Shown here piece by piece: positions 14,772 through 32,498 of a stretch of 64,000 nucleotides of DNA. The notes under the pieces were generated by a model. That model was not told the DNA's origin. It did not search any database and was given only the letters and a program-made list of their open reading frames with translations. Each line of letters opens with the position of its first letter. Position 1 is the stretch's first letter. The DNA comes from Prauserella cavernicola (GTDB lineage: Bacteria; Actinomycetota; Actinomycetes; Mycobacteriales; Pseudonocardiaceae), in assembly GCF_016595675.1 (NCBI RefSeq), contig NZ_JAENJH010000009.1, forward strand, positions 124,001 through 188,000. Direction: 5' to 3'. The position numbers were made by a program, and so were the translations under genes.

Positions 14772-15808
14772 GTGAGTCCTCCCGCAGGCGAGCGCGACAC
14801 CATGGCGGTGGCGCTCGCCCAGAGTGAGACCGTGCGCGGCACCACGAGCCCGAACCCGCCCGTCGGCGCCGTGATCCTCGACGCGGACGGCGTCCTGGTC
14901 GGCCGCGGTGCCACGCAGCCACCTGGAGGTCCGCACGCCGAGGTCATGGCACTGCGCGAGGCGGGTGAGCGGGCCAGGGGCGGCACGGCGTTCGTGACGC
15001 TCGAACCGTGTTCCCACCACGGCCGCACCCCGCCGTGCACGGGCGCGTTGCTCGACGCCGGGATCGCCGCCGTGCGGTTCGCCGTCGCCGACCCGCACCC
15101 GCTGGGCGCGGGGGGAGCCGGGGTGCTGCGGGCTGCGGGCGTCGACGTCCGCGAGGGGCTGCTCGCCGACGAGGTCGCGGGCGGTCCGTTGCGGCCGTGG
15201 CTGCACTTCGTGCGCACCGGGCGGCCGCACGTCACGTGGAAGTACGCCGTGACCCTCGATGGCAGGGTGGCCGCCGCCGACGGCACGAGCCGCTGGATCT
15301 CGGGGCCCGCCTCGCGCGCGGAGGTCCACGCCATCCGGGCCGCGGCCGACGCGATCGTGGCCGGGACGGGCACCGTGCGCGCCGACGACGCGTGGCTCAC
15401 CGTGCGCGACGCCGACGGACATCTCGCGTCGCGCCAACCACTTCGAGTGGTGGTGGGCACAGGCGGCATACCGGAGAACTCGCGGGTGTTGGACGAGTCG
15501 GCGGAGACGCTGCTCGTCCGGACCCATGATCCGGACGAGGTGCTGACGGCGCTCACGGAGCGTGGGGTGGTGGACGTGCTGCTGGAGGGCGGGCCGACGC
15601 TCGCGGGCGCGTTCGTGGCGGCGGGCCGGGTCGACCGGATCCTGGCCTACGTCGCGCCCTCGCTGCTCGGCGCGGGTCCGGCGGCGCTGGGGCCGTCGGG
15701 AGTGTCGACCATCACCGAAGCACACCGTTGGCGGGTCGAAGGGGTCACCATGAGCGGAGACGACGTGCGGATCGCCGCTGTTCCGCTCACCGGCGAGGGA
15801 GGCAGCTA

Positions 15809-25239: not shown

Positions 25240-25677
25240 TCAGTCGGCCATGTTCGCGATGGCGATCACCTTGGTGATCGTCGCGCGGACCAGGAGCTCG
25301 CCCTCGACGGCGTTGCGCTTGCCGAAGGCCTCGGCCTGATCCTCACCCATGTACCTGCCGCCGATCCGCGTCGACCACGGCAGCATCTGTTCGAGGTCCT
25401 CCGAGATCCGCGCCTGCGCGGTGAACTGCACGAACGAGTACGGCGGACGCTGGTCGTCGACGGTCACCGAGATCCGGCCGTCGCGGCGCAGCGCCTTGCC
25501 CTTCACCGTGTCCGCTCCGGTGTTGAAGATCAGCTCGTCGCCGCCGGGGCCCTCGCCGAGCACGAACCAGATCGGTGTCACGTGCGGGGAGCCGTCGGCC
25601 CGCACCACACCGAGCTTGCCGGTGAGCGTTCCGGTGCCCGCGAACTCCCGCCACTCGTCTCTCGTCATCTCACGCAT
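25240..25677 (-). CDS. PPOX-class F420-dependent oxidoreductase
   Basis: 145 aa of the pyridoxamine-phosphate-oxidase-like split-barrel fold. The actinobacterial branch typically uses F420 (or FMN/heme); LTGKLGVVRADGSPHVTPIWFVL, the phosphate-binding NTGADTVKGKALRRDGRISVTVDD and the C-terminal Arg/Lys pattern fit that branch. I chose ATG 25677 because TAGCTT (25685-25690, minus strand) lies exactly 7 nt upstream, a leaderless arrangement; a TTG at 25686 would add three residues. Divergent from the condensin-like operon, with which it shares 60 bp. Substrate unknown. Confidence 0.82.
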   Translation of the reverse strand: MREMTRDEWREFAGTGTLTGKLGVVRADGSPHVTPIWFVLGEGPGGDELIFNTGADTVKGKALRRDGRISVTVDDQRPPYSFVQFTAQARISEDLEQMLPWSTRIGGRYMGEDQAEAFGKRNAVEGELLVRATITKVIAIANMAD

Positions 25678-25684
25678 GAGGGGC

Positions 25685-25690
25685 AAGCTA
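25685..25690 (-). promoter_or_regulatory. -10 box TAGCTT for leaderless PPOX gene
   Basis: On the minus strand TAGCTT is followed by 7 nt and the ATG ending at 25677. Confidence 0.5.
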
Positions 25691-25723: not shown

Positions 25724-25729
25724 TACTCT
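25724..25729 (+). promoter_or_regulatory. -10 box TACTCT for the condensin-like operon
   Basis: TACTCT followed by 8 nt and the GTG at 25738. Together with the opposed PPOX -10 at 25685-25690 this makes a compact divergent promoter region. Confidence 0.5.
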
Positions 25730-25737
25730 TTTCCGCT

Positions 25738-27237
25738 GTGCGTGATGACGAGATGGCCGGAACGGGGGACCCCGACGAGGGGCTGGCCCGCAGGCTCAAG
25801 GCGCTCGCGTGCACCGCGCCGCTACACGACCTCGACGCCCGCAAGTCGAAGCTGGACTGGGCCGACGCCACGATCTACCAGATGGCCGAGATCGGGCTGC
25901 ACACGATCGACCAGGTCACCATCGCCATGGACTTCGACACCGGCGCCGATCACCAGCAGGTGGTCAACCGCCTGCTGCCGTTCATCGCGGCGCAGGCGCC
26001 GGGCCGGGCCATCACCGAGCACACCCGCGTCGCGCGCTGGGTGCTCGACAACCTGATCAACGTCGGCACCACCGACCGCGGCTTCCGGCGCGTCTACGGC
26101 TCCGTCGACGCCGACGGCCGGTACCGGCGGCGCGCGTTCGACTTCAAGCTCCTCGTCGAGCTGGCCGCACCGGACGGCGAGGTGTACCTGCGCGCCACCG
26201 ATGAGGCGATCAACGTGCTCGTCGGCGCGCTCGACACCGATGTGGAGTCGGCGCAGATCGCCGCCGAGGTCAAGCTCGAGAACCTGATCAGCAGGGGCAG
26301 GCTGGCCGACGCGAAGCTCGCCGCCGAGCAGGCGCGCTACCGCACGGTGCAGTACGGGGAGACGTTGCGCGCCAAGCTCGACGCGACCCGGCGCGACGTG
26401 CGCTCGGTCGACTGGGAGCGCGAGGTGCCCGAGCTGCTCGACGCCGCGCTGTCGCACATCGAGTCCCGGTTCCGGTCCGAGACGGCGATCCTGAAGAACA
26501 TCACGGCCGCGCGCGACGAGGCCGAGGACCCGAGCCGCAAGCGCAGGGCGGCGGAGCTGGTCGACATCGTCGGCGACTGCATCCGCAGGCACACGCAACT
26601 CCAGTCGCGGTTGCAGGCCGCGGGCGCGGTGTTCCGCGCCGAGCAGGACCGCCAGCAGTTCTCCGGGCCGCCGCAGCGCGCCGCGATCGACGTGTTCGGC
26701 CAGCTGCTGACGCCCACGCTGGAGCTGCCGCTCGCCGACGCCGTGGCGCCGACGCAGGCGTACTTCCACGCCGCCACCGGCATCGCGGTGCCGACCGTGC
26801 CGTCGCTGCCGTCGCTGGTGTCGTTGCTGCTGCGGCCCGCGCCGGAGCGCGAGCAGCTGGTGGGCGAGGTGCCCGAACCCGAGCTGCTGCCCGCCGAGGT
26901 GACCGACAGCTACAGCGACGAGCAGTGGCGCTACGCCGACACGCTGCTGGATCTGCCCGAGGTGCCGCGCAGGCTCTCGGGGCTGATCGCCGAGGCGCGG
27001 GAGACCGACGCGGGCGTGGCGCGGCTGGTGGCGCTGCGCGCGCTGTACGCCTACGGTCCCGAGGTCGGCGCCGCGATCAGGCAGGGGGAGCGGCGGGTGC
27101 TGCTCGCACTGGACGACGGCACGCCGCTGGAGGATCCCGAGTTCGGTGGTGCGGACCTGTTGCTCATGTCCGCCGGCGTCAACAACTCCGATGGCACCGA
27201 CGGCACTGACGACACAGGAAGCGAGGAGGTGGCGTGA
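25738..27237 (+). CDS. Kleisin-like subunit of an SMC/Mks/Wadjet-type complex (JetA/MksF-like)
   Basis: 499 aa, unrecognised by simple motifs. Its size, position as first gene before a 266-aa partner and a giant coiled-coil ATPase, and its layout resemble MukF/MksF/JetA: an N-terminal helical/winged-helix part (about residues 15-145), then a long amphipathic 'neck' section (YLRATDEAINVLVGALDTDVESAQIAAEVKLENLISRGRLADAKL..., about 150-225), more helices (to about 310), and a C-terminal domain with YSDEQWRYADTLLDLPEVPRRLSGLI. The acidic C terminus is poorly conserved-looking. GTG 25738 lies 8 nt after a -10 box; ATG 25753 is the alternative. It overlaps the next gene by 4 nt. Kleisin identity is inference from context and secondary-structure pattern. 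Confidence 0.65.
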   Translation: MRDDEMAGTGDPDEGLARRLKALACTAPLHDLDARKSKLDWADATIYQMAEIGLHTIDQVTIAMDFDTGADHQQVVNRLLPFIAAQAPGRAITEHTRVARWVLDNLINVGTTDRGFRRVYGSVDADGRYRRRAFDFKLLVELAAPDGEVYLRATDEAINVLVGALDTDVESAQIAAEVKLENLISRGRLADAKLAAEQARYRTVQYGETLRAKLDATRRDVRSVDWEREVPELLDAALSHIESRFRSETAILKNITAARDEAEDPSRKRRAAELVDIVGDCIRRHTQLQSRLQAAGAVFRAEQDRQQFSGPPQRAAIDVFGQLLTPTLELPLADAVAPTQAYFHAATGIAVPTVPSLPSLVSLLLRPAPEREQLVGEVPEPELLPAEVTDSYSDEQWRYADTLLDLPEVPRRLSGLIAEARETDAGVARLVALRALYAYGPEVGAAIRQGERRVLLALDDGTPLEDPEFGGADLLLMSAGVNNSDGTDGTDDTGSEEVA

Positions 27238-28034
27238 GCACGGGGCATTCCTCGGCGGACGCGGAGGCGGCCGCACGGCTGGTGTCGTTCGGCATGCGGC
27301 CGAAGCTGCTGCCCGGCCGCGACGTCGTGTACGGCGAGCTGGTGCGGCGCTACGGCGAGGACAGTTCGTTCAAGCAGCTCACGCACGCGGTGGCCGCGGG
27401 CCTCGGCCTGATGGTGCTGGAGGTCAGCGCCCAGGCCGGTGCGGTGCTGGCCGCCACCGACGAGTCGATCTTCGAGATCAAGATGGACAGCTACGCGCGG
27501 CATAGCAAGATCCGCGAGCGGCGCGACACCGAGAAGGTGCTGCACGGGCTGATCCACCTCGCCACGGCCGCGCTCGGCTACCCGCGGCCCGACGACCTCG
27601 CCAACGACACCTACATCGGCCGGGTCAGCGTCGAGCAGGTGGACGGCGTGGTCCGCGAGGCGTGCAGGCTGCTCGACGAGCGCGCGGCCGCGGCCGACGG
27701 CAACAACGACCCGCTCGCCGACGCGCCGGAGCTGGAGCAGGCGTGGCGGGCGTACGCGCGCAGGCCCGCGGCCGCGGCGACCAAGGACGGCAGGCTCTCG
27801 TCGGACACCACGCGGGGGATGGTGGCCAGGGCGCTACGGTTCCTGTCCGAGCAGGGTTTTCTGGTGCAGGTCAGTGGCGAGCAGGGCGGCACCTACCGCA
27901 CGACGCCGCGCTACCAGGTGCAGGTGCGCGAGCTCGCCGCCGACGCGGCCTTCGACGAGCTGCTGACGCTGGGGGTCGTGTCGGTGCCCGGTGGCAACGG
28001 CAGCCTGCGGGCCGCCAATTCGGACACGCTGTAG
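27234..28034 (+). CDS. Winged-helix partner of the SMC-like complex (JetB/MksE-like)
   Basis: 266 aa, GTG start in a GTGA overlap with the kleisin-like gene. The N-terminal two thirds are helical (VVYGELVRRYGEDSSFKQLTHAVAAGLGLMVLEV...), and the C-terminal part (MVARALRFLSEQGFLVQVSGEQGGTYRTTPRYQVQVRELAADAAFDELL) reads as a winged helix with a beta wing, like MukE/MksE/JetB (KITE-type) subunits that bind the kleisin. A short low-complexity linker lies near residue 150. No enzyme motifs. It is followed after 18 bp by the ATPase. The assignment rests on gene order and domain pattern. Confidence 0.62.
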   Translation: MSTGHSSADAEAAARLVSFGMRPKLLPGRDVVYGELVRRYGEDSSFKQLTHAVAAGLGLMVLEVSAQAGAVLAATDESIFEIKMDSYARHSKIRERRDTEKVLHGLIHLATAALGYPRPDDLANDTYIGRVSVEQVDGVVREACRLLDERAAAADGNNDPLADAPELEQAWRAYARRPAAAATKDGRLSSDTTRGMVARALRFLSEQGFLVQVSGEQGGTYRTTPRYQVQVRELAADAAFDELLTLGVVSVPGGNGSLRAANSDTL

Positions 28035-28052
28035 CGCTGTAGGGGGAGAGGC

Positions 28053-31000
28053 ATGTACGAGCTGTCACGGGTGCGGCTGCACTCCGTGGGGCCCAGCGGC
28101 GCCCGCTACCAGGACGTGGTGCTGGACTTCAGCGGCGTCGGCGACGTGATCACCGCGCCGAAGCAGGACGCGCTGTTCGGCGCCGGGATCCACTCGGCCG
28201 AGCAGGGACTGCCACGCAGGCCCTCGCCCGCGAGCGTGCTGTTCCTGGAGAACGGCGGCGGCAAGTCCGTGCTGATCAAGCTGATCTTCTCGGTGATGCT
28301 GCCCGGCAGGCGGCAGGTGGTCGGAACCACCAACACGCGCGTGCTGGAGAAGTTCGTGGGCGCCAAGGACGTCGCGCACGTGGTGCTGGAGTGGCAGCAC
28401 ACCGAGACCGGCGAGCGCGTGATCACGGGCAAGGCGTCCGAGTGGCGCGGGCACGTCGCCTCGTCGGATCCGGCCAACCTCATCGACTCCTGGTACTGCT
28501 TCCGGCCCAGCACATCGGTCGGGCTCGACTCACTGCCGCTGACGTCGGAGGGCAGGCTGCTCACGATGTCGGGCTTCCACGACCGGCTCGGCGAGCTGCA
28601 CTCCGACGTCCCTGAGCTGGAGCTGTTCTGGACCCGCAGGCACCACGAGTGGACCGAGCGGCTCGACCTCATCGGCCTCGACACCGAGCTGTTCCGGTAC
28701 CAGCGCGCGATGAACGCGGGCGAGGGCGAGGCGGCCGACGCGTTCGCGTTCAACACCGACGAGGCGTTCGTCGAGTTCCTGTTGCGTGCCGTGATCACCG
28801 AGGACGAGCCGAAGGACCTCGCCGAGGTGGTGGCCACCTACGCGAGCAACCTGGCGCAGCGCGGCGACCTGATGTCCGAACGGGACTTCGTCGCCGGAGC
28901 GCTGGACCTGCTGACGCCGCTGACCGACGAGGAGCGCCTCGCCGCCGCGTCGCGCAAGCTCGCGGGCACGGCGCGCGCGGACCTGCAGACGCTGGCCGGG
29001 CGCATCGCGGCGCGCGACCGGATCGAGAACGAGCGCCTGGCCGGGCTGGAGGCGCACGTCGAGGAGGTCGGCGACGCCGAGAAGCTCGCCGAGGGCGATC
29101 ACCGCAGGCTCGCCGCCGTGGTGACCGAGCTGCGGCGCACGGTCGCCGGGCTGCTGCTGGAGGAGGCGCAGGCCGACAAGGAGCGCCTCGACGCGGAGCT
29201 GGGCGAGGCCAAGACGGTGGCCGAGGCGTGGCGCGAGACCAGCACGGTGCTCACCCATCTCAACGCCACGCGCCGGGCGCGCGACATTCGCGAGCTGGTC
29301 GGCACGCGCGAGCAGAAGGCGCAGCCCGCGCTGGAGGCCAAGAACGCCGCGGCCGTGGCGCTCGCGCGCGGATTGCTCGGCCTGGCGCGCGAGGCCCACG
29401 AGCAGGCCGACGAGGCCGAGAGCGCCGCCGAGCAGGCCAGGGCCGAGGCCGAGCAGGCCCAGCGTGAGCGCGACGAGGCCACCGGTACCGCCGCCAACCG
29501 CAGGGCCGAGGCCGACGGGCTGGGCGGCCGGATCGAGGAGGTTCGCGCCGAGATCTCGCGGGCGAGCAAGGACGGCCTGCTGAGCTCCGGTGCCGACGTC
29601 GCCGAGGCGGCCAGGCTCGCCAGTGCCGCCGCCGAGACCGCGACCGACGAGCTGGCCAGGCGGGAGACCGAGCTGGAGCGGGTCGCCGAGGAGTTCGGCG
29701 CCGCGCAGACCGCCGTCAACGAGGCGCACCGCGCGTCCGGTTCGGCCCGCGACCGCGCCGAGCGCGCGGCCGACGAGCTGGAGCGGGCGCACCGGCGCAC
29801 CGACGCGCTGGCCGCAGAGGCCCGCCTCGGTGAACTGCTGGGCACCGGCGACGTGGCGCTGGAGACCGACACGCCCGCGCTGCTGGACCGGCTGCGGGAG
29901 GCCCGCGCGACGGCCGAGAGCGAGCAGACCGCGCTGCGCATCGAGGAGTCGCTCGACGAGCGAGCGCTGGGCGCGCTCGGCTCGGGTGGGCTGCTGCCGC
30001 CGCCGCAGGAGGTCCAGGCCGCGCTCGACGCGCTGGAGGCCGCCGGGATCACGGCCTGGTCCGGCTGGCGCTACCTGTCCAAACTGGACTCCGCGAAGCG
30101 GGCCGAGGCCCTGCGCCGCGCGCCGCAGCTCGTCGCGGGCGTGCTCCTCAACGAGGCGGGACACCTGCCGAGGGCACAGGAGGTGCTCGCCGAGCAGCGC
30201 CTGCTGCCGAGCGCGGCGATCCCCGTCGGTGTCACGGCGTCGCTGGCCGACGCGGGGCTGGACACCGCGCCCGGCGTGGAGTTCCTGGTGCCGCCCAACC
30301 CCGCGATGTACGACGAGGAGGCCGCCGACAGCGAGCGCGAGGCCATCGCGCGCAGACAGTCGCAGCGGCACCGGCGGCTCACGGAGCTGGAGGAGTCGAT
30401 CGGCGCGGACGCGGCGCTCTCGTGGAAGCTCACCACCTGGCGCGAGGACTACCCGCCGGGCAGCATCGCCGTGTTCGCCGAACAGGCGCAGAGCGCCGTC
30501 ACCGCGCGCGAGGCCGCGGAGGCCGCCGTCACCGAGGCGGACGCGACGCTGGCGCGGCTGACGTCCACCCGCGACACCGCGCGCGAGCGGGTGCCCGCGC
30601 TGCGCGCCACCCTGCGCGAGGTCGAGGAGAAGGCCCGCAGGCTCGAGGACCTGGCGAGCCGGGCCGCCCGCATTCCACAGTGGACCGAGGAACGGGACTA
30701 CGCGGGGGAGGTCGCGGACCGGGCCGAGGCGCGGGCGGCCGATGCGGGAACCAAGGCGGCGCGGCTGCGCGAGCGCGCGGCCGAGCACCAGCGCACCGCC
30801 GACGGGCACCGCAGGACCGCGAGCACAGCCAGGGCCGAGCTGGCCGAGGTGCCCGGCGGCGGCTCGGTGTCCGAAGAGGACACCGCGCCCGCGGAGCCGG
30901 TGGACGCGCTGCGGCGCACGTTCGCGTCCGCGGCCGAGGCCTACGCCAAGGTGGAGGTCGGCAGCGACCTGCGCGCCGAGCTCGAGCAGGCCGAGAGCGC

Positions 31001-32498
31001 CGAGTCCGCCGCCCGCGCCGCGCTGGAGAACCTGCCCGAGGCCGTGCGCGCGATGGCGGGTGAGCTGCTGGAGACCCCGGACGGCTCCGACGCCTCCGCG
31101 CGAGCGGCCGCGCAGGCGAGGGCCGCGCGCACCGTGTCGGCGCTGGAGGACGAGCGCGCCGAGGTGATCGGCGTGTTCGCCACCCGCAGGGCCGAGCTGG
31201 ACCAGCTGCCCAAACAGCAGGGGCCGCTCGACTCGTTCGAGAAGCCGCGCGACATCGAGCACGGCAGGGAGCTCATCGACGCCGCGGCCGCCGAGGTCTC
31301 CGCTGCCGCCCGCACGTGGGAGGAGCTCAAGGAGCAGCGGGGCGCGGCGCAGGCGTCGCTGGACTCGGCCCGCCAGTCGGCGTCGGGCTTCGGTCTGCTC
31401 GCCGAGTCGCTCGCGCCGTACGCGCCTCCGGGCGAGGCCGACCAGGTCTACGACGCCGACGTGGAGACCGCGCGGTCGCGCCACGGCGAGCTGAGCTCCA
31501 CGCTCGCGCGGGCGCAGGAGACCGTCGACGAGGCCGAGAAGCGTGTGCGCGCGGCCTCGGACACGCTTGCCCAGTACGCGACCGAGAAACGCTTCGAGAA
31601 GCTCACGACGCCCGTGCGCCAGCAGGTGATCTCGGTGCGCCGCGACAGCCTCCCGCAGTACGCCCAGGAGTGGGCGGAGGCGCTGCGGCCCCGGTTGCGC
31701 ACGCTGACCGACGACCTCGCCCAGATCGACCGGCACCGCTCGGGGATCGTCACGCGGTTGCAGAGCATGGCCGAGGGCGCACTGCGCACCCTGCGCTCGG
31801 CGCAGCGCGTGTCGCGGCTGCCCGACGGACTCGGCGACTGGTCGGGCCAGGAGTTCCTGCGCATCCGGTTCACCGAGCTCGAGGGCAGCGAACTGGCCGA
31901 GAAGCTCGGCGAGGTCGTCGACGAGGCCGCGGCGGGCAAGACCAGCGACGGCCGCGACGTCAAGCGCGACGGGATGTCGCTGCTGCTGCGCGGTGTGCAG
32001 GCCGCGGCGCCCAAGGGATTCCGCGTGGACATGCTCAAGCCGGACTCGGTGCTGCGGACCGAACGGCAGCGGGTGTCGGAGATCCGCGACGTCTTCTCCG
32101 GCGGCCAGCAGCTGACCGCGGCGATCATCCTGTACTGCACGCTCGCGGCGTTGCGGGCCAACAACCGGGGCAAGATGCGCAACCCGCACTCCGGGGTGCT
32201 CTTCCTCGACAACCCGATCGGCCGCGCCTCGGCCGGATACCTGCTGGAGCTGCAGCGGGCCGTGGCCAGGGCGCTGGGTGTGCAGCTGATCTACACGACG
32301 GGCCTGTTCGACGCCGGGGCGCTCAGCGAGTTCCCGCTCATCGTCCGCCTGCGCAACGATGCCGACCTCAGGGCGGGTCGCAAGTACCTGTCCGTGGAGG
32401 CGACGCTGCGCCAGGAGCTGGACGAGCTGGCAGACCCGGACGGGGTGGCGCGCCTGTCGGCCACGCGGCTCTACGCCAAGCCCGCCGCCACCGGCTAG
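28053..32498 (+). CDS. SMC-like coiled-coil ATPase (JetC/MksB/MukB-like)
   Basis: 1481 aa; ATG preceded by AGGGGGAG at good spacing. The N-terminal ATPase lobe has a Walker A-like LENGGGKSVLIK (residues 65-76), lacking the usual first Gly. About 300-1200 is Ala/Glu/Arg-rich coiled coil, interrupted near 590-760 by a globular hinge-like domain (GITAWSGWRYLSKL...GVTASLADAGLDTAPGVEFLVPP). The C-terminal lobe has the ABC signature FSGGQQLTAAIILYCTLAAL (from about 1349) and the Walker B-like VLFLDNPIG, with Asp 1386 followed by Asn, not Glu. Together with the two upstream genes it forms an SMC-kleisin-KITE set like MksBEF or Wadjet JetABC. No Toprim nuclease gene follows; the next gene is a convergent exporter. 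Confidence 0.8.
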   Translation: MYELSRVRLHSVGPSGARYQDVVLDFSGVGDVITAPKQDALFGAGIHSAEQGLPRRPSPASVLFLENGGGKSVLIKLIFSVMLPGRRQVVGTTNTRVLEKFVGAKDVAHVVLEWQHTETGERVITGKASEWRGHVASSDPANLIDSWYCFRPSTSVGLDSLPLTSEGRLLTMSGFHDRLGELHSDVPELELFWTRRHHEWTERLDLIGLDTELFRYQRAMNAGEGEAADAFAFNTDEAFVEFLLRAVITEDEPKDLAEVVATYASNLAQRGDLMSERDFVAGALDLLTPLTDEERLAAASRKLAGTARADLQTLAGRIAARDRIENERLAGLEAHVEEVGDAEKLAEGDHRRLAAVVTELRRTVAGLLLEEAQADKERLDAELGEAKTVAEAWRETSTVLTHLNATRRARDIRELVGTREQKAQPALEAKNAAAVALARGLLGLAREAHEQADEAESAAEQARAEAEQAQRERDEATGTAANRRAEADGLGGRIEEVRAEISRASKDGLLSSGADVAEAARLASAAAETATDELARRETELERVAEEFGAAQTAVNEAHRASGSARDRAERAADELERAHRRTDALAAEARLGELLGTGDVALETDTPALLDRLREARATAESEQTALRIEESLDERALGALGSGGLLPPPQEVQAALDALEAAGITAWSGWRYLSKLDSAKRAEALRRAPQLVAGVLLNEAGHLPRAQEVLAEQRLLPSAAIPVGVTASLADAGLDTAPGVEFLVPPNPAMYDEEAADSEREAIARRQSQRHRRLTELEESIGADAALSWKLTTWREDYPPGSIAVFAEQAQSAVTAREAAEAAVTEADATLARLTSTRDTARERVPALRATLREVEEKARRLEDLASRAARIPQWTEERDYAGEVADRAEARAADAGTKAARLRERAAEHQRTADGHRRTASTARAELAEVPGGGSVSEEDTAPAEPVDALRRTFASAAEAYAKVEVGSDLRAELEQAESAESAARAALENLPEAVRAMAGELLETPDGSDASARAAAQARAARTVSALEDERAEVIGVFATRRAELDQLPKQQGPLDSFEKPRDIEHGRELIDAAAAEVSAAARTWEELKEQRGAAQASLDSARQSASGFGLLAESLAPYAPPGEADQVYDADVETARSRHGELSSTLARAQETVDEAEKRVRAASDTLAQYATEKRFEKLTTPVRQQVISVRRDSLPQYAQEWAEALRPRLRTLTDDLAQIDRHRSGIVTRLQSMAEGALRTLRSAQRVSRLPDGLGDWSGQEFLRIRFTELEGSELAEKLGEVVDEAAAGKTSDGRDVKRDGMSLLLRGVQAAAPKGFRVDMLKPDSVLRTERQRVSEIRDVFSGGQQLTAAIILYCTLAALRANNRGKMRNPHSGVLFLDNPIGRASAGYLLELQRAVARALGVQLIYTTGLFDAGALSEFPLIVRLRNDADLRAGRKYLSVEATLRQELDELADPDGVARLSATRLYAKPAATG

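Follow-up and report, generated by a model that had tools for sequence, protein, structure and literature searches.

The 64,000-nucleotide stretch of DNA analysed here (the window; Prauserella cavernicola contig NZ_JAENJH010000009.1, positions 124,001 to 188,000) carries a three-gene operon, jetABC, whose products are, judged by their profile matches, the motor part of a Wadjet type III system; no gene for the Toprim nuclease JetD was found with them. The genes, and the motifs of the ATPase JetC, lie at the following positions of the window (aa, amino acids):

25738-27237, plus strand: jetA, 499 aa, GTG start; putative kleisin-type subunit of Wadjet type III (kleisin after the family name)
27234-28034, plus strand: jetB, 266 aa; KITE-type subunit with tandem winged helix (tentative)
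28053-32498, plus strand: jetC, 1481 aa, ATG start; SMC-type ATPase
28248-28268, plus strand: Walker A motif ENGGGKS of jetC, aa 66-72
30036-30086, plus strand: conserved hinge-like segment EAAGITAWSGWRYLSKL of jetC, between the coiled-coil halves (putative hinge)
32094-32111, plus strand: ABC signature FSGGQQ of jetC, aa 1348-1353
32199-32216, plus strand: Walker B motif LFLDNP of jetC, aa 1383-1388, with Asn at the position of the SMC catalytic Glu

A preliminary description of this DNA, made from the sequence alone, had reported three packed, co-directional genes of 499, 266 and 1481 aa, and the open reading frame calls bear this out: jetA and jetB overlap by GTGA, and 18 bp separate the jetB stop from the jetC start. 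The G+C content at third codon positions is 0.93-0.96 in jetA, jetB and jetC, which marks all three as coding.

Family assignment and ATPase motifs

The jetA product matches the PADLOC JetA3 profile (PDLC00567) with 704 bits (E 2.5e-212) and that of jetC matches JetC3 (PDLC00588) with 1952 bits; the gene order A-B-C and the tight operon are likewise those of Wadjet type III. The kleisin proposed earlier agrees with the JetA3 family name; for the proposed KITE subunit, JetB, there are a weak match to PADLOC JetB3 (E 0.021) and a KITE-like structure model of low confidence. Pfam and NCBIfam gave no useful name for JetA, JetB or JetC, and sequence searches against solved structures (with JetC, JetA, and profiles of JetA and JetB) returned one coiled-coil match at E 0.0058, the rest being at chance level.

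The Walker A-like, FSGGQQ and Walker B-like motifs and the hinge-like interruption described earlier for JetC were all located, the last being a probable rather than a certain hinge. The JetC rows compared retain Walker A and the signature motif. The LDNP form of Walker B is found in 111 of 112 JetC rows, with or without JetD (the exception, L084, is out of frame there), and in all 35 rows from the wider class; among 12 further type III-like loci it was found in five (L187, L188, L189, L192, L193), and the search pattern did not detect it in the other seven. JetC shares its overall architecture with the SMC of SMC-ScpAB but scores 23 bits against the SMC_prok_B cut-off of 567; the genome has its canonical SMC (964 bits) and ScpA (217 bits) at other places.

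Distribution of JetD

Pfam JetD_C has no match in the source genome at E <= 10, and the profile built from six JetD3 proteins has a single match, of 15.6 bits (E 0.025), which covers only the N-terminal profile positions 14-69 and has no Toprim part. A JetD encoded in trans was rejected on the strength of these two profiles, which an unrelated nuclease would escape; no JetD was found among the scanned neighbours of jetABC. Other members of the Wadjet III subfamily do have the nuclease: in Actinoplanes (L072), Nocardiopsis (L080), two Actinoallomurus (L082, L092) and Amycolatopsis rifamycinica (L067) the jetD gene overlaps the jetC end, in a metagenome-assembled genome of the Pseudonocardiaceae (L084) it follows jetC, and L148 bears it as well. 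PADLOC JetD3 (PDLC00594) matches with 340-385 bits in all five of those scanned (L067, L072, L080, L084, L092), and the JetD alignment has invariant Toprim-type acidic residues. The lack of a Toprim nuclease asserted in the preliminary description therefore stands for the operon and for the genome, as searched with the two profiles, and not for the conserved system as a whole, in which JetD adjoins jetC in related loci.

Upstream of jetA lie a PNPOx-family gene (minus strand), whiA, cofD, rapZ and uvrC, and downstream of jetC lie lysE (minus strand), alkZ (plus strand), gap, pgk and tpi. The nearest named relatives are Prauserella flavalba and P. endophytica, with 92% JetC identity. Of 71 JetC loci from named genomes, 63 were classed as core, having at least one of whiA, gap and the PNPOx gene in the stretch examined. 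A consistently linked fourth gene, the possibility of which had been raised earlier, was sought among these neighbours: none of those followed (uvrC to tpi) tracks jetABC through all core loci, though JetD adjoins jetC in some relatives. alkZ is mostly no more than about 1.3 kb away from gap, its distance to jetC ranging from about 0.1 to 8 kb, and thus belongs to the neighbourhood and not to the operon; several core loci yielded no alkZ. AlkZ was considered as the missing effector and ruled out, since it tracks gap, not jetC.

Among 390 genomes of the family, JetA is matched in 181 and JetD in 62 (E <= 0.001), five candidates having been scored per genome in the JetD search. The genus that holds A. 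rifamycinica (g15; 80 genomes, G140-G218 and G017, its completeness being taken from the unbroken run of handles) has JetA at 79% identity or more in all 80, and each of the nine core copies fetched from it lies in the whiA-gap neighbourhood. JetD3 occurs anywhere in 18 of these genomes and beside the core copy only in A. rifamycinica itself (G182); a further JetA match is present in 15 of the other 17. G167 (L163), G214 (L164), G140 (L144) and G176 (L184) each have, away from the core copy, another complete type III operon, this one with JetD. Over the 80 core-locus rows of the JetC tree (79 relatives and the source), JetD adjoins in two, L067 and L148; in the latter (genome G020), the only other core-locus JetD seen, jetD lies in the whiA-gap neighbourhood with jetC on one side and gap on the other. 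Plasmids gave JetA matches in 5 of 72,556 records, all below 60% identity. The operon without JetD is a lasting feature of the chromosome; its vertical, genus-wide occurrence at a fixed chromosomal place, with no JetD found in operon or genome, sets it apart from Wadjet type III.

At the A. rifamycinica locus a gain of jetD can be traced in the DNA. Compared in 60-codon windows, the L067 jetC and its counterpart in Amycolatopsis sp. MtRt-6 (L079) are 88-97% identical everywhere but in the last window, where identity is 70%; between L079 and L043 this last window retains 88%. After the divergent jetC end comes jetD, with its stop at 15492-15494, and 2 bp past that stop, at 15497-15526, lies a scar, the native jetC tail, 30 bases which in the same or near-identical form end jetC in all six relatives checked (L039, L040, L043, L079, L083, L086). 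The simplest explanation of this arrangement would be that a foreign jetC end and jetD were inserted into a JetD-less A. rifamycinica locus. The donor lies outside the sampled loci; a quick JetD tree, with long branches, places L067 and L148 with L141, L144, L184 and L113 (support 96), and in the JetC tree, too, L141, L144 and L184 come close to the core clade.

Over the whole JetC tree of 147 rows (23 with JetD and 124 without), the JetD state changes at least nine times. Clades without an adjoining JetD include 24 rows of genus g89 together with Kitasatospora, and nine rows of family f32; at f32 loci L223 and L231 the contig ends at jetC or within 93 bases of it, so that the locus alone does not show JetD to be absent. 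The JetC trees left out six loci that were truncated, frameshifted or at a contig end (L071, L075, L125, L166, L170, L176), 14 duplicate rows, 5 of the 40 class loci (jetC frame missing or shorter than 1400 aa), and L185-L196, which were fetched for reading the ATPase motifs only. In genus g5, JetD-less loci (L126-L135) are interleaved with JetD-bearing ones (L136, L138-L140, L142, L143), which represents further gains or losses; five JetD queries from g5 detected no JetD remnant in these ten JetD-less loci at E <= 0.01. At L084 (10001-15484) JetC loses its frame close to the C-terminus and continues into the jetD frame, possibly through an assembly error, and JetC frames of 899 (L176), 606 (L221) and 1150 aa (L225) inside long contigs are presumably broken or misassembled copies.

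Across 394 genomes of the class, JetA is matched in 60 (E <= 1e-100) and JetD in seven (E <= 1e-40, eight places); the two lie within 10 kb of each other at two places, G733:C22 and G660:C743, and JetD adjoins in 2 of the 40 class loci read (L226, L227). Genus g89, which groups with Kitasatospora locus L091 (support 100) and is almost certainly Streptomyces, has JetA in 146 of 150 genomes (E <= 1e-60) and JetD3 in 11 (E <= 1e-20, 12 places). Four of those 12 places are beside a listed JetA (G883, G930, G807, G831), each genome having another JetA copy elsewhere, and the other eight are more than 10 kb from any JetA among the matches listed, a list without second copies in G855, G522 and G886. 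A family's being missing from the VIA-align list does not exclude that family.

Selection on jetABC and its possible role

The ratio of non-synonymous to synonymous substitution rates (dN/dS) for jetA, jetB and jetC, respectively, is 0.03-0.15, 0-0.09 and 0.06-0.22 in 11 JetD-less core pairs; 0.07-0.18, 0.08-0.25 and 0.20-0.27 in four JetD-bearing pairs; 0.10-0.12, 0.07-0.08 and 0.15-0.19 in two JetD-less pairs of g5; and 0.07-0.09, 0.01-0.02 and 0.11-0.14 in two pairs of L067 with JetD-less relatives. For comparison, whiA gives 0-0.07 and alkZ 0.18-0.36; gap and pgk were not used, several gap pairs being misaligned. With their lower ranges than in the JetD-bearing pairs, jetB and jetC tend to be more constrained in JetD-less complexes. 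A pseudogene was ruled out by the JetC frame lengths and by dN/dS, which stays far under 1 in each of the 19 pairs and marks purifying selection. That the operon is the decaying remnant of a Wadjet which lost its nuclease is hardly credible: JetD is indeed missing, and the JetC frame is shorter than 1400 aa in 6 of 131 loci, but two of these short frames run off the contig (L071, L125) and another two come from one genome (L075, L170), and the low dN/dS holds for jetA, jetB and jetC alike.

We favour, with some confidence, the reading that jetABC is a Wadjet type III SMC motor without JetD, a loop extruder that acts on the chromosome beside SMC-ScpAB and does not cut plasmids. The preliminary description had seen a divergent member without a nuclease and had left three possibilities; the Wadjet III family and the lack of JetD agree with it, and of the three a condensin is favoured over a nuclease-free anti-plasmid system or one with a distant nuclease. 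Dimers of JetC would form a loop-extruding complex with JetA as the kleisin and JetB as the KITE subunit, and ATP-driven extrusion on the host chromosome would serve compaction, segregation or arm organisation, as has been put forward for the MksG-less MksBEF of Pseudomonas aeruginosa; plasmids would not be cut by JetABC. JetD would be a detachable module, its gain documented in A. rifamycinica and its presence variable in several lineages.

A number of observations weigh against a chromosomal role. The Walker B motif is without the catalytic Glu, so ATP turnover is not assured. Columns were taken as conserved where a single residue occupies at least 93% of 18 JetD-bearing rows, and as kept where that residue has a majority of at least 60% in 78 JetD-less core rows (source included); by this measure the JetD-less rows keep 172 of 175 columns in JetA, 84 of 85 in JetB and 301 of 312 in JetC. 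No decay of a JetD-docking surface is therefore visible, and an unrecognised partner could use such a surface; decay after loss of JetD had been considered and was dropped on this column conservation. The jetA dN/dS ranges overlap between the groups, pairs share rows, and the JetD-bearing pairs number four. Genus-wide conservation is by itself compatible with a role in defence. The nuclease-bearing MksBEFG of Corynebacterium glutamicum has no part in folding the chromosome (PMC7083940), and a DefenseFinder survey found Streptomyces Wadjet, which may or may not be the JetD-less copies, enriched towards chromosome ends, which its authors link to mechanism, not to housekeeping (PMC10482375).

Immunity without a nuclease would have JetABC extrude and compact circular extrachromosomal DNA, which would be silenced or kept from replicating but not cut. 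Smc5/6 is thought to act in this way on viral episomes. The closest relatives of jetABC are anti-plasmid systems, and JetABC retains the surfaces that are conserved where JetD is present, but genus-wide presence and low dN/dS are unlike patchy defence genes, and we regard such immunity as unlikely. A rather slender prospect is that some other nuclease works in trans, so that the operon would belong to a disguised but complete anti-plasmid system; the undecayed docking surface and the restriction of the search to the JetD_C and JetD3 profiles would allow for it, but no neighbour between uvrC and tpi follows jetABC through all core loci, alkZ following gap. JetABC might also be kept as a modular sensor with a basal role and become a Wadjet when jetD arrives, as the divergent jetC 3' end and the jetD ahead of the surviving native jetC tail in A. 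rifamycinica, and the JetD3 next to jetC in the whiA-gap neighbourhood of L148, would suggest; with one gain directly documented among 80 core rows, and the tree changes elsewhere compatible with either polarity, we think this improbable.

EptABCD of Mycobacterium is a relative of type I Wadjet/MksBEFG and carries an MksG-type nuclease. The Corynebacterium type I Wadjet/MksBEFG resembles jetABC in being an actinobacterial SMC-kleisin-KITE complex alongside SMC-ScpAB (shown for C. glutamicum; PMC7083940), but differs in having the nuclease MksG, which in two-hybrid tests joins the complex via the kleisin MksF (PMC7083940). A C. glutamicum MksB mutant named E1042Q (PMC10123090) implies, in our reading, that MksB has the Walker B Glu, where JetC here has Asn.

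The combination of kleisin, KITE and SMC without a nuclease is that of P. aeruginosa MksBEF (which has no MksG) and of MukBEF, the kleisin and KITE of jetABC being assigned by family name and weak structural evidence. The type III head and the LDNP Walker B distinguish jetABC from both, as one or more separate JetD-less lineages; JetC gave no match to MukB or MksB models in Pfam or NCBIfam, a result compatible with homology. The idea of a JetD-less descendant is already in print, an origin of MksBEF and MukBEF by loss of JetD having been proposed (PMC10586767), and a search of the open-access literature found no paper in which type III complexes without JetD are named for Amycolatopsis or Streptomyces. 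Since JetD-less and JetD-bearing versions of one operon occur in one genus, descent of MukBEF and MksBEF from anti-plasmid machines becomes directly testable.

That related bacteria have the motor without its nuclease as a regular part of the chromosome suggests that machines of defence and of chromosome maintenance can interconvert. We propose tentatively, and somewhat short of calling it probable, that Streptomyces, Amycolatopsis and related bacteria possess, in nuclease-free Wadjet III, a core SMC complex which has been overlooked and which is a second condensin next to SMC-ScpAB, that defence and housekeeping interconvert through gain and loss of jetD, and that part of the actinobacterial "Wadjet" counts is not immunity. 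If so, large groups of antibiotic-producing actinobacteria would have a second, unstudied chromosome-organising motor; the word Wadjet does not occur in the available part of a 2026 paper on SMC in Streptomyces (PMC13121528). Labelling jetA and jetC as "Wadjet defence" without a check for jetD may then overcount immunity, Wadjet having been reported in 42% of actinobacteria vs 7% of others (PMC10482375), figures that may or may not count JetD-less loci.

The putative jetA promoter and adjoining genes

One further element precedes the operon:

25724-25729, plus strand: -10-like element TACTCT of the putative leaderless promoter, 8 nt before the jetA GTG

A TAnnnT element stands before an in-frame start near the jetA 5' end in all 79 core-locus relatives, with a spacer of 8 nt in 72 and 6 nt in seven, as against 22 of 1580 base-shuffled upstream regions; a sigma-70 consensus scan gave no promoter-like site. 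These counts support the leaderless type of promoter predicted earlier and its conservation at jetA.

The PNPOx-family gene (25240-25686, minus strand) is divergent from jetA; it was not found at a number of other core loci, and stands beside jetA in most Amycolatopsis and several Prauserella loci. In g89 a sensor-kinase-like gene comes after the operon in 22 of 25 loci (L206-L219, L233, L237-L245), and many g89 loci also have roadblock-like and GTPase-like genes downstream, a set that we take to be conservon-like.

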